The translations under genes and the position numbers were made by a program. A model generated the notes under the pieces. That model did no database searches, was not told the DNA's origin, and was given only the letters and a program-made list of their open reading frames with translations. Positions 37,961 through 46,975 of a DNA stretch of 64,000 nucleotides are shown here, piece after piece. The stretch's first letter is position 1. The number at the start of each line of letters is the position of its first letter. This DNA comes from Alienimonas californiensis (lineage in GTDB: Bacteria; Planctomycetota; Planctomycetia; Planctomycetales; Planctomycetaceae): assembly GCF_007743815.1 (NCBI RefSeq), contig NZ_CP036265.1, forward strand, positions 2,808,823 to 2,872,822. Direction: 5' to 3'.

Positions 37961-38067
37961 GAGCCCCGACCGTCAGGGAGGGGCCGTTCGCACGTCGCCG
38001 AACGGTTCGGTCGGTGAACGAATCGCTCGCGCGCCTCAGAACGGCCCCTCCCTGACGGTCGGGGCTC
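37961..38067. repeat. Inverted repeat, family D, between exbD and nuoH
   Basis: The arms at 37961-37989 and 38039-38067 are 29 bases long and perfectly complementary, separated by 49 bases. The arm core is CCCCGACCGTCAGGGAGGGG. The right arm reaches into the stop codon of the second exbD. It fills nearly the whole gap between the ExbB/ExbD block and nuoH and could form a large hairpin in a read-through transcript. Confidence 0.9.
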
Positions 38068-38527
38068 AGTTTCCAGCCTGCGGCGCGTCCGCGGCGAAGC
38101 TGACCTGCTCGAATCCCGCCGCTCTGGCTGCGTCGTAGACGCGGACCACATCGCCGGCGGGGACGGCGCCGCCGACGTCGAGGATCACCGGCAACTCGCC
38201 CGCCGCGTCGGCCGCCGCGAGGCCCTGGAACGCTTCCTCCAACGCTTCCAGGCCCGGGTAGGTGCGGTCGTTGACGGTGACGGTCGTCAGGTTGCCGGCC
38301 CGGTCCAGCCGCACCCACAACTCGCCCAGCGGCGGGGGCGGTTCGTCGGTCGGGGCGGCCAATTCGATCGCCGTGCCGCTCAGTTCCGTGGCGAGCACCT
38401 GCTCGCTCACCCGGCCCACGCTGGCGCAGATCCAGAACGTCAGCAGGAGGAACACCAGGTCGATCATCGGCGTGAGCGCCTGCTCACGCCGGGCCTCCGC
38501 GTCGTCGTGCCGCTTGGGGAGCTTCAT
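38066..38527 (-). CDS. ExbD/TolR-family biopolymer transport protein (second copy)
   Basis: This 153-residue protein has a short cytoplasmic N-terminus, one membrane helix with the conserved Asp (TPMIDLVFLLLTFWI, about residues 19-33) and a periplasmic domain. ExbD/TolR proteins form with ExbB/TolQ a proton-driven motor that energises outer-membrane processes. It starts in an ATGA overlap with the first exbD. Its stop lies in the right arm of the family D repeat. The periplasmic part ends in QVSFAADAPQAGN. Confidence 0.87.
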   Translation of the reverse strand: MKLPKRHDDAEARREQALTPMIDLVFLLLTFWICASVGRVSEQVLATELSGTAIELAAPTDEPPPPLGELWVRLDRAGNLTTVTVNDRTYPGLEALEEAFQGLAAADAAGELPVILDVGGAVPAGDVVRVYDAARAAGFEQVSFAADAPQAGN

Positions 38528-38952
38528 CGGTCCCCCCCGCCGCCGTCGCGTTGCAGCACGGCGAACTTCACGTCCCGCACGCCGGCCTCCGCACAGGCGA
38601 CCAGCAGGGGTTCGACCTCCGAGAACGGCGCCGCCCGGTCGCACCGCAGACGGACCTCCGGGTCCGGCTTGGTCCCGGCCTCGGCGAACAGCGCCGCCAC
38701 GAACGCCCGGTCCCGCACCTGCCCGGCCACCCGCAGCGTGCCGTCGGCTGCGACCGTCACGGTCACGCGGTTCGGCGTCGCCGCCTCGGCGGCGGCGGCG
38801 AGCGTGGCGCTCGGCAGGTCGACCCTCTCCCCGGCGTCGATCTTCACCAACTGGGAGGCGGCCAGAAAGAAGGTGACCAGCAGGAAGGTCACGTCGATCA
38901 GCGGCGTCATGCTGAACCGCAACGTCGTACGGCGGCGCTCGGGCGTTTTCAC
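38524..38952 (-). CDS. ExbD/TolR-family biopolymer transport protein (first copy)
   Basis: This 142-residue protein has the single membrane helix with the conserved Asp (MTPLIDVTFLLVTFFLA) and a periplasmic domain ending DVKFAVLQRD. The GTG at 38952 overlaps the exbB stop by four bases (GTGA). It is clearly diverged from the second copy, so the motor may use a mixed ExbD pair (inference). There is no TonB or Pal in the window. Confidence 0.87.
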   Translation of the reverse strand: MKTPERRRTTLRFSMTPLIDVTFLLVTFFLAASQLVKIDAGERVDLPSATLAAAAEAATPNRVTVTVAADGTLRVAGQVRDRAFVAALFAEAGTKPDPEVRLRCDRAAPFSEVEPLLVACAEAGVRDVKFAVLQRDGGGGDR

Positions 38953-39800
38953 AGCCCCGCCCCCCGGCGCCCCAGCGGCGCGACCGGCCCCGCGGGGGCC
39001 TGCGGAGGCGTCTGTAACGCCGAGGCCGCGCGGGGCCTCGGCGTAACGGCGGCGGGCTGAGCCGGAGCGCTCCGCCGCAGTTCGCTGAAGATGTGCTCCG
39101 CGGCGCCGGCGGCCTCGGCGACGAGTTCGTCGATCTTGTTCCGCAGCAGGGCGAACGACGCCACCGCCGGCACCGCCACGCCCAGCCCCAACAGCGTGGT
39201 CACCAGCGCTTTGAAGATGCCCGGCGCCAACTCCGACACCTGCGGGTTCGCCTTCGTGCTGAACTCGTTGAAGGCCAGCATCATGCCCCACACGGTCCCC
39301 AGCAGACCCAGCATCGGGGCGACGGTGGCGATCACGGACAGGTACTCCGCCCGCCGGGTCAGACGGGCGGCCTCCTCGGCGGCGGCGTCCTCCATCGCCT
39401 TCTCCGCCGCCTCGTAGCCGCGGTCCGCCTCGACGGCTCCGGCGTGCACCAGTCGGCCCAGCAGCCCCCCGCGGCGGGCGCCGACCTCCGCCGCCTCCTT
39501 GAACCGCTTGCGGGCGATCAGCCCGTGAGCCTCGCCCGCCAACCCCCGGGGCAGCAGCCGGCCGCGACGCACCGCGAGCATCTGCTGGACGATCAACGCC
39601 ACCATCGCCACGGACAGCGCGAGGATCAGCAGCCCGACGACCCCTCCGGCCTCCAACAGTTCGCGCAGGTCCGGCATCCCGGCGGCGGCGTCGGCGGGGG
39701 CCGCCCCTCCTTCCTGCGCGAAGCCTGCGGGGACGAACCCGACGGGGGCGAAGGTCAGCGCGACCGCGGCGACGCACGTGCGGGGGAGATTGCGGGGCAC
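38949..39800 (-). CDS. ExbB/TolQ/MotA-family proton channel protein
   Basis: The protein (283 residues from the GTG at 39800) carries a signal-like N-terminus ending in PAGFAQEGG, then three membrane segments: VVGLLILALSVAMVALIVQQML, the conserved VIATVAPMLGLLGTVWGMMLAF, and ALVTTLLGLGVAVPAVASFALL. The last two form the MotA/TolQ/ExbB core. The Pro/Ala-rich C-terminal tail (about 35 residues) includes residues encoded by a family B palindrome. It is followed by two exbD genes, all coupled by 4-base overlaps. Confidence 0.88.
   Translation of the reverse strand: MPRNLPRTCVAAVALTFAPVGFVPAGFAQEGGAAPADAAAGMPDLRELLEAGGVVGLLILALSVAMVALIVQQMLAVRRGRLLPRGLAGEAHGLIARKRFKEAAEVGARRGGLLGRLVHAGAVEADRGYEAAEKAMEDAAAEEAARLTRRAEYLSVIATVAPMLGLLGTVWGMMLAFNEFSTKANPQVSELAPGIFKALVTTLLGLGVAVPAVASFALLRNKIDELVAEAAGAAEHIFSELRRSAPAQPAAVTPRPRAASALQTPPQAPAGPVAPLGRRGAGL
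39015..39046. repeat. Palindromic repeat, family B copy 2, inside exbB
   Basis: This imperfect palindrome reads TAACGCCGAGGCC then GCGCGG then GGCCTCGGCGTAA. It differs at only a few bases from the perfect palindrome at 33468-33499. It is translated as part of the ExbB C-terminal tail. Confidence 0.75.
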
Positions 39801-39838
39801 GACGCGGCGGGGTGGGATTGGGGGGCGGGCGGGGGAGT

Positions 39839-40921
39839 TTAGGGGGAGTCCGCCGCCGCCGGAACGGCAGTCGCAGCCTCGCCCGATGCGTCGTCGGCCG
39901 GTTCGAGGGGCTTGTCCGGGGCGGCGCCGAGCTCGTCCAGCCGGCGGCGGGCGTCCTCGGCGGCCTCGGCGAAGGGGAAGCGGGCGACGCACTCCCGCCA
40001 CAGCCGGATCGCCGCCAGCGGATCGCCCGCCCGCAGCAGATCGCCCGCCCGCAGCAGCCCGTCCGCCGCCCGGATCGGGTCGACCGGGTCCGCGATCGGC
40101 GTCCAGAGGAACGCGGCGATCGCCTCGTCGTTTCGCCCCGCCGCGACGGCCGCGACGCCGAGCGTGAACGTCGGCCCGGCCCGCAGCGGCTCCGGCAGGT
40201 CGTCGATCCGGCGGCGGGCGGCGTCGAGTTCCGCCGCGGTTCCCTCGCCGTCCAACACCTTCGCCCGCCAACGCTGGAGCCGGGCCAGCTCCGCGATCTC
40301 GTTCGAGCCCGACCGACTCAGCCGCTGCAACGTCTCCACGGCCCCCGCCCGCCGGGAGGGGGAGCCGACCAGCACGCCGGCGCCCAGCAACTGCTCCGCC
40401 TCGTCCGGGCCGTTGACCCAGCGGTTCGCCGCGGCGAGCTCTTCGCCCCGCGGCGGCCGGTCGCCCCAGGGGACCGGCAGCAGGCCCAGCCGGTCGGTCG
40501 CCGCCGGATCGCTGCGAAACAGGGCGAGGAACCGTCCGCCCGCCGACGGCCGGTCCGCGGCGGCGAGGTCCGCGGTGACCAGCGCCGCGAGGATCTCCCG
40601 CCGCACCCACTCCCGCGGTTCCTCTTCGAGGGCGGCGGCGAGGTTCTGCCGGGTCGCGATCACGTCCCGCTCCGCCCAGGCCCGCAGCCCGGCGAGGTGC
40701 CCCGGCAGTCGCGGGGTCGTCACCTTCACCACGTCGGCGGCGGGAAAGTCCAGCAGCGCCCCGGTCGGCGCCCGCAGCGAGAGCAGCCGCGAGTCGTAGG
40801 CGATCACCTCCCCCACCGCGTCCCGCCGCCCGCCGTCTTCGGTGCGGAGGGTCACCACGTCCTCGGCCGCGGCCGTTGCGAGCGGCAGCAGGGCGAGGGC
40901 GAGGGCGGCGACGCGGCTCAT
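39839..40921 (-). CDS. Secreted TPR-like protein in the ExbB/ExbD cassette
   Basis: The 360-residue protein has a signal peptide (MSRVAALALALLPLATAAAE), a small beta domain (GEVIAYDSRLLSLRAPTGALLDFPAADVV), and a helical C-terminal half that looks like TPR/YbgF-type repeats ending AIRLWRECVARFPFAEAAEDARRRLDEL. A perfect 18-base tandem duplication at 40021-40056 encodes LLRAGD twice. The start overlaps the stop of the VWA gene (ATGA). The arrangement recalls YbgF/CpoB next to Tol genes, but the order and partners differ. Confidence 0.65.
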   Translation of the reverse strand: MSRVAALALALLPLATAAAEDVVTLRTEDGGRRDAVGEVIAYDSRLLSLRAPTGALLDFPAADVVKVTTPRLPGHLAGLRAWAERDVIATRQNLAAALEEEPREWVRREILAALVTADLAAADRPSAGGRFLALFRSDPAATDRLGLLPVPWGDRPPRGEELAAANRWVNGPDEAEQLLGAGVLVGSPSRRAGAVETLQRLSRSGSNEIAELARLQRWRAKVLDGEGTAAELDAARRRIDDLPEPLRAGPTFTLGVAAVAAGRNDEAIAAFLWTPIADPVDPIRAADGLLRAGDLLRAGDPLAAIRLWRECVARFPFAEAAEDARRRLDELGAAPDKPLEPADDASGEAATAVPAAADSP

Positions 40922-41958
40922 CGCAGCTCCCGCACGTCGCAGTACTCGTAGCCGCCGTTGTGCTCGGCGGCGAGCTGCGCGACCGGGCCGCTCCGCAGTT
41001 CGCGGCCGCGGCCGAAGTTCACGCAGTGGATGCGGGTGTTCGACTTGTTCAGCCGCCGCAGCGCGCTGAAGTCCTGCGGGGAGAGGGCGCGCTTGCCGTC
41101 GGTGAGGAAGAAGATCGCGTCCGGCTTCAGGGCGAGCGCCGCCTCCAGCGCCACCAGCGGCTGCGTCCCGCCGCCGGGGACCACCGAGCCGACGAACTGC
41201 CCGGCCAAGGTCTTGTTGAAGCCGGTGGCGAAGTAGAAGCCGTCCTCCATCCGGGCCCGCTCCGACATCGGCTTGACCGTGTCGTTGAAGAACAGGATCT
41301 GGAACCGCTGCCGCGGGCCGAGCGTGGCGAGGCTGGCGAGGGCCTCCCGCTTGGCGATGGCGAACTCGTGGGCGGGATCCATGCTCCCGCTGCTATCGAT
41401 CACGTACACGAACGTCTCCGCCTCCGCCCGCAGACCGAAGAACTCCGTCGCCCCCCGCTTCGCGGCCCCGCCCAGACTGCCGGGGTCGGCGACCGGGCCG
41501 AGGGGGGCGTCCAACGCCCCGCCGCTTTGGGCGGCCGGGCCGGTCATCGAACCGACCCCGGGGCCGAGCGCCGGCGGGGCGTCGTTCGTGGGCTCCGTGT
41601 TGCGGTTCGCCTCCTGGGCGTCGAACGCCGCGGCGTTGGAGAGCGGGTCGGCGGTCGGCTGCGGCGGGGCGTCCGTCGCGGCGGTCGCCGGGGCGGGGGA
41701 GGAGGCGGCGTTGGGGCCGTCCTCCGTTCCCTCGGTCGCGCGCAGGCGGATCCCGACCTCCCGAAAACCGTCGGTCGCCTCGCCGTCGCTGTTCGACCCC
41801 GCGCAGCTCCGCAGTTGCGTGGCGACGAGCGCCAGCAGGGCGGCGTGCAGCACGACGCTCGTCAGCCAGCCGGGCAGCAGGCCGGACCGTTCCCGCCGCG
41901 GCGGGGCGAACGTCGGCAGGCCGGAGCCCGGGACGCCGCCGTAGCTGGGGGCGGTCAT
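40918..41958 (-). CDS. VWA-domain protein with N-terminal membrane anchor
   Basis: The 346-residue protein starts with a cytoplasmic stretch, one membrane helix (LTSVVLHAALLALVATQL) and a disordered Pro/Ala/Asn-rich linker of about 110 residues. A C-terminal VWA domain follows, with the metal site FVYVIDSSGSMD, the Thr region GGGTQPLVALEAAL and FLTDGKRAL. The anchor form resembles TonB-like or TolA-like proteins topped by a VWA head. It lies between the LolA-like and TPR genes with ATGA overlaps on both sides. Confidence 0.83.
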   Translation of the reverse strand: MTAPSYGGVPGSGLPTFAPPRRERSGLLPGWLTSVVLHAALLALVATQLRSCAGSNSDGEATDGFREVGIRLRATEGTEDGPNAASSPAPATAATDAPPQPTADPLSNAAAFDAQEANRNTEPTNDAPPALGPGVGSMTGPAAQSGGALDAPLGPVADPGSLGGAAKRGATEFFGLRAEAETFVYVIDSSGSMDPAHEFAIAKREALASLATLGPRQRFQILFFNDTVKPMSERARMEDGFYFATGFNKTLAGQFVGSVVPGGGTQPLVALEAALALKPDAIFFLTDGKRALSPQDFSALRRLNKSNTRIHCVNFGRGRELRSGPVAQLAAEHNGGYEYCDVRELR

Positions 41959-42956
41959 TCGTCGCCCGCCCCGCCGGCGTTCTCGTTCTCCTCGGGCGAG
42001 CGCACACGCTTCGGCAGGCCGGCGGTGCGGGCGCGGACGACGGCCGGCTCCGTCAGGTCGTCCACCTCCACGTCGTCGGGCAGGGTGAAGGCGAAGGCGT
42101 CGTCCGGCAGCGGGACGTTCACCCGAATGTCGGAGAAGTCCAGCGTGAGCATCGGCGCCCGCGGGCCGCTCGCGATTTGCGACCAGTAGCGGATGCGGTG
42201 CGGGAACAGGGTCTCGGCGTCCAGGTAAACCGTCACGCCGGTGGGCGGCGGCGGGTCCGGCAGGAGCTTGGCTTCCGCGGTCCGCTCCGCGAACACCGCC
42301 AGCACGCCCTCGGTCCAGCGGCCGTTCAGCACGAGGTACTGGCGGTCCGCGATCGTTTCGGTCTGCGGTTCCTCCCACTGCATGGCCGTCCGCAGGGAGG
42401 CCAGCGTGCCGGTCAGCCCCCCGCTGGCGAGATCCCCCGCCAGGCTCACGCCGCTGTCCCGGGCGGCGGCTTCGGCGCGGACGGTGCGGATATTGCGGCG
42501 GGTCACGGCGATGCGGTCGTCCAGGCCGTACTGCGTGTGCATCACCGCCCCGTCGCAGACCTGCAACAGGGAGGGGCCGAGCTCCGCCTGCTCCGGGGCG
42601 GGGTTCAGTTCGATCCGCACCCGCCCGCCGGAGGCCACCAGCAGGCGGCCGACGCTGTCGAACCGATGCCCGCCGACCACCGCCGTCTGCCGGAGGTTCG
42701 CCGACAGCGACGGCACGGCGCCCAGCCGCACGCGGGCCTCGTCGAGGATCCGGCCGGCGGTGCGGCGGGTGTCCGGGCGGGGGGCGGCGACCGGCGTCTC
42801 CGCCGACGTTTCGGCCGCCGCATCGACCGGCGTTTCGGCGGCCAATTCGGCCGGCAGGTTCGGGGGCGAATCCTTCGGTCCCGCGGCATTCTGGGCCCCG
42901 CCGACCAGCGGTGCGTATAAGAGGAGAACCGAAGCGGCGAGGAGTCGCGTGAACAT
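41955..42956 (-). CDS. LolA-like outer-membrane lipoprotein carrier domain protein
   Basis: The 333-residue exported protein has a signal peptide (MFTRLLAASVLLLYAPLVGG), an Ala/Pro/Glu linker and a half-barrel LolA/LolB-like region: LSANLRQTAVVGGHRFDSVGRLLVASGGRVRIEL and VTVYLDAETLFPHRIRYW are typical strands. The C-terminal strand set ends VNVPLPDDAFAFTLPDDVEV, a common LolA-family ending. It is the first gene of the minus-strand run that continues through the ExbB/ExbD block into complex I. Whether it carries lipoproteins is not shown by the sequence. Confidence 0.7.
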   Translation of the reverse strand: MFTRLLAASVLLLYAPLVGGAQNAAGPKDSPPNLPAELAAETPVDAAAETSAETPVAAPRPDTRRTAGRILDEARVRLGAVPSLSANLRQTAVVGGHRFDSVGRLLVASGGRVRIELNPAPEQAELGPSLLQVCDGAVMHTQYGLDDRIAVTRRNIRTVRAEAAARDSGVSLAGDLASGGLTGTLASLRTAMQWEEPQTETIADRQYLVLNGRWTEGVLAVFAERTAEAKLLPDPPPPTGVTVYLDAETLFPHRIRYWSQIASGPRAPMLTLDFSDIRVNVPLPDDAFAFTLPDDVEVDDLTEPAVVRARTAGLPKRVRSPEENENAGGAGDE

Positions 42957-43339: not shown

Positions 43340-44689
43340 ATGAAACTTTACCTGTTCGGATTGGCCACCTGCGTGGTCGTCTGCGTGGGCTGCGCGGTCG
43401 ACGGAACCCCGGGTCCCCACCGGGGCAAGGAATACGTCGCCCCGCCCGCGGCCATGCTCCAGCATCCCGGCCCGATGATCGACGGCCCCGGCCCGGGCGT
43501 GCTGCCCCCGATGGCCGGCCCCATTCAGCAAACCGCCGCCCAGTGCCCCGCCAACTGCCCGCCCGGCCTCGCCGGCCCGGGCGGGGGCTACGGCCCCGGC
43601 GCCCCCGGCGGCCTGCCCGGCGCCCCGGCGACCACCCAGGTCAGCTTCCTCAACCCCCCGGGGATGACGGTCGGCTGGCAGAGCGGCGCCGTCTACGCCG
43701 AGGACCAGCTCGTCGCCCCGGCTCGCTATAACTTCCCGCAGGCCGCCGTCTACCGGCTCAAGCTGAGCGACATCCCCGGTCGTCCGGGCCTGACGCTCTA
43801 CCCGACCCTGCAACTGTTCCCGGCCCAGCCGGAAACCGCCGCCTACCTGTCCCACGTTCCGGTGCCGGTCGAAGTCACCGCCGAGGATCTGGACAACGTT
43901 CGCAGCAACAACTTCGTCACCAAGGTCGTCTACCTGCCGGACGCGGAGTACCAGGACCTGGCGATCGTCGGCGTGGAAACCCTCGTCTCCACCCGCCTCG
44001 ATCCCGGTCAGGACCCGGTCGCCCTGGCCGAACAGCGCGGCACGCTGCTGGCGGTGTTCCGGATGGGCGGCATCGACCTCGAAATGCCCAGCCGTCCGCT
44101 GCCCGGCAGCGGCGTGAGCCCGGTCAGCTTCGAGGGTGAAGAGGGCGGCGTCGAGCAGGTCGACTACAGCTACCAGGGCGAGCTGGGCGAGTTCGCCCCG
44201 CCGATTCCCATCGCCACCACCGGCACCGGCCCGATCGGCGTGCCCGCCCCGCAGATTGTCGCCGAAACCGGCTACGGCTACCCCGGCCCCGGCCAGCCCG
44301 CCCACATGCCGGTCTACGGGATTCCGAACGTCGGCACCCCGATCGGCCTGCCCGGCCCGCCGCACCTGCCCTACGGCGGCCCCGCCGGCCTCCAGAGCCA
44401 CACGATGCGGAACCTCACCGACGTGCGGCTGCCCCGGCCGGTCGAGCACCAACTGCACGACGTGAAGCACACCCCCGGCCTGAGCCTGCCGGACCCGGTG
44501 GCCTACACGTACTACGAAGAGAACCACCCGCACTACAGCGCCGGCGAAGTGAAGTACCCCGGCCAGATGGTCTCCCCGGGCACCCCGATGCCGCCGCAGC
44601 CCCACGGCAACGGCTTCAACGTCGGGCCGTACTCCGCGGGTCCGGCCGGCGCTCCCCCGGTGCACAACGACTACCACGGCAATCACTGA
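43340..44689 (+). CDS. Secreted lipoprotein, planctomycete-type, unknown function
   Basis: The 449-residue protein has a lipoprotein signal with lipobox Cys18 (CVVVCVGC). A Pro/Gly-rich linker comes first. A beta-type domain at about residues 95-260 follows, including YRLKLSDIPGRPGLTLYPTLQL and NNFVTKVVYLPD, and it is shared with the next gene. The C-terminal half is rich in Pro, Gly, His and Tyr (HMPVYGIPNVGTPIGLPGPP), like an exposed low-complexity region. A clear ribosome-binding site precedes the ATG. It probably sits on a membrane facing the periplasm. I do not know the function. Confidence 0.8.
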   Translation: MKLYLFGLATCVVVCVGCAVDGTPGPHRGKEYVAPPAAMLQHPGPMIDGPGPGVLPPMAGPIQQTAAQCPANCPPGLAGPGGGYGPGAPGGLPGAPATTQVSFLNPPGMTVGWQSGAVYAEDQLVAPARYNFPQAAVYRLKLSDIPGRPGLTLYPTLQLFPAQPETAAYLSHVPVPVEVTAEDLDNVRSNNFVTKVVYLPDAEYQDLAIVGVETLVSTRLDPGQDPVALAEQRGTLLAVFRMGGIDLEMPSRPLPGSGVSPVSFEGEEGGVEQVDYSYQGELGEFAPPIPIATTGTGPIGVPAPQIVAETGYGYPGPGQPAHMPVYGIPNVGTPIGLPGPPHLPYGGPAGLQSHTMRNLTDVRLPRPVEHQLHDVKHTPGLSLPDPVAYTYYEENHPHYSAGEVKYPGQMVSPGTPMPPQPHGNGFNVGPYSAGPAGAPPVHNDYHGNH

Positions 44690-44841: not shown

Positions 44842-44860
44842 TGCGGCAGTGAGTCGCCCT

Positions 44861-44936
44861 GAGAGTCCATTGAGAGTCGGACGGAGTCCGCAAAACGTCG
44901 CCGGGAGTCCGGCGGGAGTCGGCGGGAGTTCCGTCC
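44861..44936. repeat. Degenerate GAGTCC/GAGTCGG repeat cluster
   Basis: At least six copies of GAGTC or GAGTT occur at irregular 9-20 base spacing, several as GGGAGTCCGG or GGGAGTCGG, in the leader of the second secreted-protein gene. A short duplication (GGTCGTGAGGAA) lies just upstream near 44740-44765. Confidence 0.6.
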
Positions 44937-44971
44937 GCCGCCCGTCCCCGCCTGAATCGGCCGGTCTCCCC

Positions 44972-46975
44972 ATGCCCCGTCCGTCCCTCTCCGAACTGCG
45001 GGCCGCGGCCCTGCTGACCCTCGCCGCGGCCTGCACGCTGGCGGACGGGGTCTGCGGCGGGTCGTCCGCGGCGTTCGCCCAGGGGCTGCGGCGTCCGCAG
45101 GCCGGCACGCCGCTGCCCCCGCTCGCCGACACCCCCGCCGGCGCCCTCGGCGCCCGGGCCGTGCTGCTCGATCCGGCCCGTCGCGGCTTCATGACGGTGA
45201 ACGTCTCCGCGGCCGGCGGCGGTGCCGTGGAGATCTACGGCGAACCGTTCGCCCCCCCGATTCCCGTCGGCGGCGACCCCGCCGCCCCGGAAGGCCCCGC
45301 GGGCGGCTCGCTGGTCCGGCTGTGCGTCGGCCGCACCTATCGGATGCGGATCACGGACATCCCCGGTCTCCCGCCGGAAACCACGCTGTTCCCCAGCATC
45401 GAACTGGTGGACCGGCTGCACCCGCCCGACGGGCTCGCCAGCGCCTTCCCCCTGCCGGTCAGCATCACCCCGGAGGAGGCCGCCCAGGCCGCCGCCGGGG
45501 CGCTGATCACCAAGGTGATCTATCTGGAAGACCCGGACCTCGCCCCGACGACGTGGTTCCGCGGCCCGCTGCGGCGGACCGATCTGCCCCCGAACGCCGA
45601 CCCCCTCGCCGAGGGCGGCGCCCGCGGCCGGGTGATCGCCGTGGTGCGGCTGGGCGGCCGGACGCCGGACCTGCGGACGCCGGAGCGCGCCTTCTACGGC
45701 ACCGGCGGCCCCGTGCTGCCGGCCGCCCCCGCCGACGTGAACCTCCCCCCGCTGCCGCCGGTGACCGACGCCGTCACCCAGGTCTCCGCCGTGGAACCGG
45801 CGAAGTCGATCACGGAGATCGTCGGCCCCGGCATCCCCTGTCCCGAAGGCCGGGCGACGCTGGACCTCGGCTCCTCGGCTGACTGCCCCGTTGACGCCTG
45901 CCCCGTCGACGCCTGCCCGGCGCCGGCCCTCTGTCCGCCGCCGCGGTTCGCCCCGCCGGTGCACTGCCCGCCGGGCGGGGTGCGGTACGGGGCGCTGCCG
46001 CCGGTCGGCGGCGCCGTGCTGGATTGGCGCGTGCCCGGCCCCTACTGCCCGCCGGAGGTGCGGCCGAAAGACGAATACCTCTGCGACGGCGGCGACCGCC
46101 TGCGCCCCGCCGGCACGACCGACTACCTCGGCGGCCTCGGCGGATTGGACCCGGAGGACGCGGTGGTCCGCTTCCGCGGCTCCGACGGCGAACTGCACGT
46201 CTGCCCGACGAACCGGGTCTGTATCTACGCTCCCCGGTTCGCCGAGGTCCGCACGCTGTTCGGCGTCGTCGCGGACACCCGCTACTTCGGCCCCGCCGAT
46301 CTCGCCCGCACCGCCCGCAGCAACGTGGACGTGATCGACGTGCCGACCGGCCTGGTCCGGCAGGACGTGCGTCCCGACGCCGCCCGCGTTCGCAGTCGGG
46401 CCTCCGGTCTGGCCGTGGACTCCCCCTGGAGCGCCCTGTCCGATGTGCTCCGCAGTCAGCAGAACGTGCGGTACACGGAGGTGTTGCGGGTCGTCACGAA
46501 CGAGCAGGCGAACCTCCGCACCGGCGTGACCGCCGCGGAACTCGCCCAGCGCGAGGACGCCGCGGCCGTCTGGACCCGGGCGGACAACCCGGTGACGTTC
46601 TTCGTCGGCGCCGCGACCACCACCGCGATCGGCGTGAACCGGCCGCAGGTGATCGTCGGGGTCGAGGACAAGCGGAAGCCGGGCCTGCTGTGCGTGCACA
46701 AGTACGCCGACAAAGCCTTCGCCGCCACGGGCGACATCGTCACGTTTACCATCACCGTAGAGAACCGCGGCCAGAAGCCGCTCTCGGAGATCGTGATCCT
46801 CGACAACCTCACCCCCCGGCTGGAATACGTCGAGGGCAGCGCCGAGGCCACGCTCGCCGGCGAGATTCAGGTCACCCCCAACGGCGAGGGCAGCGGCATC
46901 GTCCGCTTCGTCCTCACCGAAGACCTCGAAGGCGGCGAGAAGGGCCAGCTCACCTTCCAAACCCGCGTGCGGTAA
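44972..46975 (+). CDS. Secreted protein with shared domain and C-terminal DUF11-like domain
   Basis: The protein (667 residues from the ATG at 44972) has a signal peptide (ELRAAALLTLAAACTLADG). It shares a beta domain with the preceding lipoprotein: YRMRITDIPGLPPETTLFPSIEL and ALITKVIYLEDPDL match the neighbour's motifs. A Cys/Pro-rich linker with CPVDACPVDACPA comes next. A central domain runs from about residue 350 to 540, and a C-terminal DUF11-like domain follows (VTFTITVENRGQKPLSEIVILDNL). A GTG at 44849 would extend the protein but spoils the signal peptide position. Probably cell-surface or envelope-linked. The pair looks like an ancient duplication. Confidence 0.8.
   Translation: MPRPSLSELRAAALLTLAAACTLADGVCGGSSAAFAQGLRRPQAGTPLPPLADTPAGALGARAVLLDPARRGFMTVNVSAAGGGAVEIYGEPFAPPIPVGGDPAAPEGPAGGSLVRLCVGRTYRMRITDIPGLPPETTLFPSIELVDRLHPPDGLASAFPLPVSITPEEAAQAAAGALITKVIYLEDPDLAPTTWFRGPLRRTDLPPNADPLAEGGARGRVIAVVRLGGRTPDLRTPERAFYGTGGPVLPAAPADVNLPPLPPVTDAVTQVSAVEPAKSITEIVGPGIPCPEGRATLDLGSSADCPVDACPVDACPAPALCPPPRFAPPVHCPPGGVRYGALPPVGGAVLDWRVPGPYCPPEVRPKDEYLCDGGDRLRPAGTTDYLGGLGGLDPEDAVVRFRGSDGELHVCPTNRVCIYAPRFAEVRTLFGVVADTRYFGPADLARTARSNVDVIDVPTGLVRQDVRPDAARVRSRASGLAVDSPWSALSDVLRSQQNVRYTEVLRVVTNEQANLRTGVTAAELAQREDAAAVWTRADNPVTFFVGAATTTAIGVNRPQVIVGVEDKRKPGLLCVHKYADKAFAATGDIVTFTITVENRGQKPLSEIVILDNLTPRLEYVEGSAEATLAGEIQVTPNGEGSGIVRFVLTEDLEGGEKGQLTFQTRVR

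Follow-up and report, generated by a model that had tools for sequence, protein, structure and literature searches.

A gene unit with the order VWA-TPR-ExbB-ExbD-ExbD has been published as the 'vWA force transducer' of PVC bacteria, including Planctomycetes (Williams-Jones et al. 2025, PMC12204202), so the five-gene unit is already known. As described in the main text of that paper, the vWA transducer has an N-terminal SxxxH helix, a long linker and a C-terminal VWA domain, and its neighbours are a TPR gene, a tolQ-like gene and two different tolR-like genes. AF3 complexes were given there for the transducers, their function was unknown in the words of the authors, and a surface-adhesion or gliding-type role was suggested. 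A LolA-like gene is absent from that main text, where 'LolA' occurs 0 times.

The locus studied here belongs to Alienimonas californiensis (Planctomycetaceae) and lies in a window of 64,000 nt (the whole stretch of DNA that was analysed) of contig NZ_CP036265.1, with the cassette at window positions 38066-42956. Six genes, all on the minus strand, encode a protein of predicted LolA fold, a membrane-anchored VWA protein, a TPR protein, ExbB and two ExbDs, and two divergent genes, named D1 and D2 here, lie next to them:

41955..42956 (-), LolA-like protein, 333 aa, with a signal-peptide-like N-terminus without lipobox (by eye)
40918..41958 (-), VWA protein, candidate force transducer, 346 aa, with TM helix, linker and C-terminal VWA domain
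39839..40921 (-), TPR solenoid protein, 360 aa, with a signal-peptide-like N-terminus and an N-terminal small beta domain
38949..39800 (-), ExbB/TolQ-type channel, 283 aa, GTG start, with an N-terminal signal-like extension and two TM threonines that do not vary within the family
38524..38952 (-), ExbD/TolR-type subunit 1 (ExbD1), 142 aa, GTG start, with TM Asp20
38066..38527 (-), ExbD/TolR-type subunit 2 (ExbD2), 153 aa, TM Asp kept
43340..44689 (+), D1, candidate lipoprotein (VCVGC), divergent, regularly found next to the LolA-like gene
44849..46975 (+), D2, next after D1, with DUF11 as its C-terminal domain

The four 4-base overlaps (LolA/VWA, VWA/TPR, ExbB/ExbD1 and ExbD1/ExbD2) and the single gap of 38 bases between the TPR and ExbB genes (39801-39838), which the first-pass annotation had described for six envelope genes, were confirmed. 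The SxxxH helix, the linker, the C-terminal VWA domain and the synteny of TPR, tolQ-like and two tolR-like genes are shared with the transducer of PMC12204202, while the LolA-like gene joined to the front is different.

The VWA protein carries a TM helix with S34xxxH38, followed by a low-complexity linker of about 120 residues (by eye). Its match to VWA_3 of Pfam (E 1.6e-5, 25.5 bits) was just under the cut-off of 27, and no match at E 0.1 was obtained in a search of solved structures. The MIDAS residues of the domain are D188, S190, S192, T265 and D287. Alignment A2 held 35 of the 37 VWA homologues, leaving out L041 (partial profile match, helix with SxxxH) and L070, the sole homologue without SxxxH. 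S34 and H38 were invariant in all 35 sequences, at a mean column identity of 29%; the D-x-S-x-S of the MIDAS (D188, S190, S192) and D287 were likewise found in 35/35, and T265 in 34/35. Judged by this alignment, the helix corresponds to the SHLS helix of the vWA transducers in the two key residues S and H only, as the positions of L and the final S vary. The VWA_3 match together with the conserved MIDAS likewise argues for a C-terminal VWA domain like that of the published transducers.

When the best hydrophobic segment of each protein was inspected, SxxxH was present in 36/37 homologues and in 80/80 of an overlapping set, the top 80 among at least 527 confirmed loci; these counts lean to closer relatives, because the set was found by one peptide pattern and the best loci were kept. 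This segment count was used instead of a plain-text count (79/80), some of whose matches fell outside the TM helix. As a control, only 1/102 segments of TPR, LolA-like, ExbB and ExbD proteins carried the motif. Of 20 further VWA proteins encoded by these genomes, 12 also had SxxxH, so the motif is not special to the VWA family of the cassette. A role of the VWA protein as the only Ton-type arm of the genome was rejected, since a TM helix carrying SxxxH is present as well in a protein beside another ExbD match of this genome.

ExbB (2.4e-30) and both ExbDs (1.8e-18 and 3.5e-13) matched Pfam above cut-off. Two TM threonines of ExbB were invariant in 22/22 sequences of alignment A4 (22 of 24 matches, two own-genome paralogues left out), and the glutamate which precedes the second threonine in TolQ/ExbB was mostly replaced, with E in 2/22. 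The TM Asp of ExbD was invariant in 30/30 sequences of alignment A5, which held 30 of the 41 ExbD matches listed. For the TPR protein, TPR_6 matched at E 0.0048, under the Pfam cut-off. Its AlphaFold2 model had a mean pLDDT of 91.5 and gave generic TPR-protein matches only in Foldseek (best E 1.2e-3), and for this reason no specific adaptor family was named.

Among relatives, VWA-TPR-ExbB-ExbD-ExbD was complete and in order in 12/36 loci, and TPR, ExbB and at least two ExbDs lay downstream of VWA in 32 of the 58 titled loci for which 5 kb or more of downstream sequence was available, the same synteny as in the published transducers and in the window. ExbB was not detected near VWA in 15/36 relative loci, partly owing to contig ends. 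The order of the window is not due to chance, because it recurs in relatives. With SxxxH, MIDAS, the ExbD Asp and the ExbB threonines invariant in the alignments, this recurrence makes the reading of the VWA protein as a motor anchor well supported by sequence. The first-pass annotation had put the VWA protein in the place of TonB or TolA on an ExbB/ExbD motor, and the invariant SxxxH helix, the recurrent order and the kept motor residues support that placing, which had already been published (PMC12204202).

The cassette is probably a Ton/Tol-type proton-driven motor in which a VWA domain forms the end of the force-transducing arm. The sequence itself shows the gene order, SxxxH, MIDAS and the motor residues, and from these we infer assembly, force and ligand binding. 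ExbB would form the channel ring with the two different ExbDs as its inner pair, and protons would pass by the ExbD aspartate and the ExbB threonines. The SxxxH helix of the VWA protein may dock laterally on the ring, like that of TonB/TolA, its flexible linker would span the periplasm, and its metal-binding VWA domain could grip a periplasmic or outer-membrane partner, with the TPR protein as a putative periplasmic adaptor. The LolA-like protein may be an associated carrier, for which the divergent D1 lipoprotein is the candidate cargo; that this protein is functionally linked with the motor is a proposal of its own, less well supported, and the estimate for the VWA motor does not extend to it.

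No Pfam family was matched over cut-off by the LolA-like protein, and its match to TIGR00547 of NCBIfam was weak (E 7.1e-4, 19 bits against a cut-off of 112); the PF03548 (LolA) profile had no match in the genome. Fold prediction was applied because Pfam gave nothing useful on ten members of the family either. The best PDB matches of the AlphaFold2 model (mean pLDDT 75.2) in Foldseek were LolA structures (E 1.2e-9 for 2w7q), and the first five matches, with target TM-scores of 0.61-0.68, were all LolA or annotated lipoprotein carriers. A LolA fold is thus predicted, the name being taken from these models and the TIGR00547 match. The predicted fold and a position beside a conserved lipoprotein gene are shared with LolA carriers; different are a sequence under the Pfam and NCBIfam cut-offs, an identity of 11-14% to the first five structure matches (10-16% over the first 20) and a cargo that is putative here. 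A LolC/E-like permease was also found in the genome (E 8.1e-48, below its cut-off).

The first-pass annotation had regarded all six genes as one unit whose order would be conserved in other planctomycetes. The five-gene part does recur, but the LolA-like gene, single copy in 33/40 relatives, adjoins VWA in only 10/25 genomes of the family and in 0/13 of the loci read outside the family but within its class, and it stays instead with the divergent lipoprotein/DUF11 gene set. In all the loci read in which it is separated from VWA (20/20), it was divergent to D1 and D2 homologues. Two loci, L204 and L205, with LolA just past the distance limit, were scored as misses in the survey of titled loci. 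Because of the 10/25 and 20/20 counts, the LolA-like gene is an optional sixth gene, and its steady partner is D1. These counts favour two units placed side by side, in which the LolA-like protein works with the D1/D2 operon and shares the motor transcript in some members of one family without acting together with the motor, and so does the quick VWA tree, on which all 31 LolA-VWA-linked rows fell within one starred clade of 68. However, linkage in this clade is scattered among VWA proteins that diverged deeply, with 9 changes on the tree, and the LolA-like and VWA genes overlap by 4 bases in the window, which leaves the chances of separate units about even.

The genome gave no match to TonB_C (PF03544), the TonB-dependent receptor Plug (PF07715) or TolB_N (PF04052); TonB_2 (PF13103) had no match either, in a search which is weak because 14 control genomes also gave none. 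The absence of TonB and TolB noted at first pass agrees with these searches. The ExbB/ExbD motor and the SxxxH anchor helix are shared with TonB-ExbB-ExbD, whereas VWA replaces the TonB C-terminal domain. As in TolQ-TolR-TolA-TolB-Pal-CpoB, ExbB scored best with TolQ among the family models and a TPR protein adjoins, but there are two different ExbD/TolR genes and VWA replaces the last domain of TolA. The cassette might substitute for Tol-Pal, with the VWA arm pulling on a partner in the outer membrane or wall, so that the outer membrane is constricted or stabilised, and with the TPR protein as a CpoB analogue. TolB_N was also absent from 40/40 relatives, and the TPR gene beside the motor has a weak YbgF match (TIGR02795, E 5.9e-4). 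Such a substitution is nevertheless rather doubtful, since Pfam found no Pal or TolB domain in the six cassette proteins and relatives carry several VWA paralogues with SxxxH.

The combination of one ExbB and two ExbDs resembles the Agl motor of Myxococcus, and D2 carries DUF11, as would suit a motor for surface adhesion or gliding by which surface proteins, D2 among them, are moved. This role, suggested for vWA transducers in PMC12204202, is unlikely for the cassette, because D1/D2 accompany LolA, rather than the motor, in loci that separate LolA from it, and the six proteins match no motility family, save for the kinship of ExbB with MotA. A Bat-like or metal-binding VWA-TPR sensor pair without force transduction, the ion channel being only a regulator, would agree with the VWA-TPR pairs that occur without detected ExbB nearby and with the Bat operons of other bacteria, which also pair VWA and TPR proteins, but it is very improbable since it gives no reason why SxxxH is invariant in the anchor helix.

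For the proton-driven VWA motor, the LolA-like gene that recurs as its neighbour and has a conserved lipoprotein gene at its side suggests a possible target and offers a concrete, testable guess, in a genome where profile searches found no TonB, TonB-dependent receptors or TolB. In part of the Planctomycetaceae the LolA-like protein might deliver D1-type lipoproteins, which the proton-driven VWA/TPR arm would load, release or place at the outer membrane or surface; this reading is plausible but putative, and a long shot. The known Lol pathways are not known to use a proton motor at the load, release or placement step. If the lipoprotein reading is true, the cassette would provide a proton-driven step in lipoprotein handling or transport.

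Six genes of the window form a cassette, in the order LolA-like, VWA, TPR, ExbB, ExbD1 and ExbD2, and two divergent genes lie beside its LolA-like end:

42956-38066, minus strand: the six-gene cassette
43340-44689, plus strand: D1, a candidate lipoprotein gene
44849-46975, plus strand: D2, with a C-terminal DUF11 domain

The junctions described in the first-pass annotation were borne out, with 4-base overlaps at four and a 38-base gap at one. By Pfam, ExbB and both ExbDs were clear, and VWA and TPR were sub-threshold. The genome of Alienimonas californiensis is a single contig of 5.475 Mb with eight ExbD matches, namely the cassette's two and six at four other places. Downstream of the cassette on the same strand, genes resembling nuo genes were seen by eye. 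The 20-mer CCGACCGTCAGGGAGGGGCC, which is REP-like, lies as an inverted pair at 37966-38062 just downstream of the cassette; seven exact copies exist in the genome, four of them forming two inverted pairs, and its reversed control gave none.

The transmembrane helix of the VWA protein is GWLTSVVLHAALL, and its S34 and H38 were invariant in all 35 aligned VWA proteins, as were MIDAS D188, S190, S192 and D287, with T265 kept in 34 of 35; the alignment covers 35 of 37 homologues, leaving out L041 (motif present) and L070 (motif absent). In Escherichia coli, the S and H of the SHLS motif have exactly this spacing, four residues apart; the later L and S were not conserved in the aligned proteins. 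Counted in hydrophobic segments, SxxxH was found in 36/37 and 80/80 VWA homologues, and among comparison segments in 0/26 for TPR, 1/10 for LolA-like, 0/24 for ExbB and 0/42 for ExbD. It was also carried by 12 of 20 lower-scoring VWA proteins from the same genomes, so SxxxH is wider than the cassette VWA family. Two of these proteins lie in second, paralogous VWA-TPR-ExbB-ExbD-ExbD sets (L236:6172-10065 and L243:6309-10169, from two genomes of another family), and a third (L233) adjoins ExbB-ExbD-ExbD.

Against solved structures, ExbB matched TolQ best (E 7.2e-14) and ExbB next (3.7e-12). Two threonines aligned with the TolQ/ExbB transmembrane threonines were invariant (22/22), and the ExbD transmembrane aspartate was present in 30/30 aligned proteins. 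The glutamate preceding the second TolQ threonine, important in E. coli, was mostly replaced (E in 2/22). The first-pass annotation had put the VWA protein on ExbB/ExbD in the place of TonB or TolA. This idea is right and already in print: Williams-Jones et al. 2025 described "vWA force transducers" of Planctomycetes and other phyla that carry SHLS helices and frequently adjoin genes for TPR, a tolQ-like protein and two tolR-like proteins; their AF3 models put the transducer helix on the motor, and S and H lie within the TonB/TolA motor-binding SHLS motif (PMC12204202). The analysis shows the gene order, the conserved residues and, for LolA-like and TPR, a predicted fold each. In the likely mechanism, a motor would be assembled on which VWA may dock via S34/H38, the VWA domain would pull on a metal-coordinated ligand, and TPR is a putative adaptor.

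TonB and TolB, noted as missing in the first-pass annotation, were not found in the whole genome either, where model searches gave no TonB_C, Plug or TolB_N match; TonB_2 was unmatched here and in 14 control genomes, so it says little. Absence of TonB_C and Plug is not general, since 10/40 and 15/40 relatives have them; TolB_N was found in 0/40. Another protein of this genome (L078:6380-8527), next to an ExbD match, has a transmembrane helix with SxxxH (SVVFH) and is possibly another kind of motor-driven arm; it gave a weak, sub-threshold squalene-hopene-cyclase match. At L076:8671-15699, also in this genome, a TPR-matching gene and a long gene of repeat-like sequence are followed by an ExbB-ExbD-ExbD set; neither a VWA match nor an SxxxH helix was detected there. 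In Rhodopirellula baltica, one exbB and one exbD gene were reported to be induced by high salinity (PMC2754498).

A VWA homologue was identified in 39/40 relatives (E <= 0.001), the weakest matches (e.g. G006, G039) probably being other VWA proteins. Profiles from the six window proteins were searched in 36 relative loci and the four other ExbD loci of this genome. The complete VWA-TPR-ExbB-ExbD-ExbD order occurred in 12/36 relative loci, some incomplete sets being contig ends and some perhaps having ExbDs too distant for these profiles. TPR followed VWA in 23/36, and same-strand ExbB was present in 21/36, 18 downstream and three upstream (L062, L063, L072, with ExbD-ExbD in between). Of 527 loci confirmed in a collection of titled genomes, the best 80 were used, and these partly share contigs with the relative loci; 78 were Planctomycetota by record name, including Thalassoglobus, Gimesia, Blastopirellula, Adhaeretor and Aquisphaera. 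In the 58 whose sequence continues for 5 kb or more downstream of VWA, TPR was found in 40, ExbB in 39, at least two ExbDs in 35 and all of these in 32.

The AlphaFold2 model of the LolA-like protein (alignment of 10) had mean pLDDT 75.2, with low confidence for about the first 62 residues. Its top Foldseek PDB matches were LolA structures (2w7q, 1.2e-9; 4mxt, lipoprotein carrier, 3.1e-9), and relatives of the fold, RseB and LprG among them, ranked after these. This genome has a single member of the family, and 33/40 relatives have one gene each, two genomes listing it as two pieces of one frame. Pfam LolA had no match in this genome and found something in 7/40 relatives; a LolC/E-like permease is present, below model cut-off.

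As for conservation of the six-gene order, the five-gene VWA-to-ExbD part recurred, and the LolA part did not hold throughout: LolA adjoins VWA in 10/25 Planctomycetaceae genomes (the window, G001, G007, G009, G012, G013, G014, G020, G021, G022), a lower bound given the lack of a good VWA match in G006 and the position of the G008 LolA near a contig end. In the remaining 15, LolA was at another place or contig in 14 and was not found in G010. Adjacency was seen in 0/13 loci from other families of the class. Among the best 80 titled loci, LolA was upstream of VWA in 21 of the 72 whose upstream sequence spans 1.5 kb or more; the count becomes 26/80 with L204 and L205 (past the distance limit) and L160, L197 and L215 (short upstream) added. 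In a quick tree of 98 VWA rows, 31 had LolA linked; this state required nine changes and stayed inside one starred clade of 68.

The neighbor that LolA keeps is D1. Twenty of the 22 relatives with LolA apart from VWA were examined (G006 and G028 outside the set), and a D1 homologue was divergent to LolA in all 20, with D2 homologues beyond; DUF11 was checked by Pfam in the window, L120, L122 and L134, the last under cut-off. D1 adjoins LolA in 8/9 linked relatives (L040 a fragment at a contig end), the ninth, L056, being cut by a contig end, and in 23 of 26 LolA loci from the best 80 titled, the other three having <1.5 kb upstream of VWA. The D1 N-terminus has a near-constant lipoprotein-like signal, e.g. 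MKYYFLALGTLVVVCVGC. A simple lipobox rule matched 38/50 D1 rows, which include repeats of single contigs; of the other 12, eight read VCMGC (one residue different) and four had the N-terminus outside the frame cut. In the window, D1 (VCVGC) and D2 have a stretch of about 120 residues in common, and the pair is kept beside LolA across several families of the class.

"LolA" is absent from the main text of PMC12204202, and in titles and abstract openings on planctomycetes and LolA we found no paper joining LolA to such a motor. The LolA-motor link is the interesting part of the proposal and also the least certain. The steady partner of LolA is the D1 lipoprotein operon; within a single family, LolA repeatedly precedes the motor genes, and this may mean that the two act together or that they are just co-transcribed.
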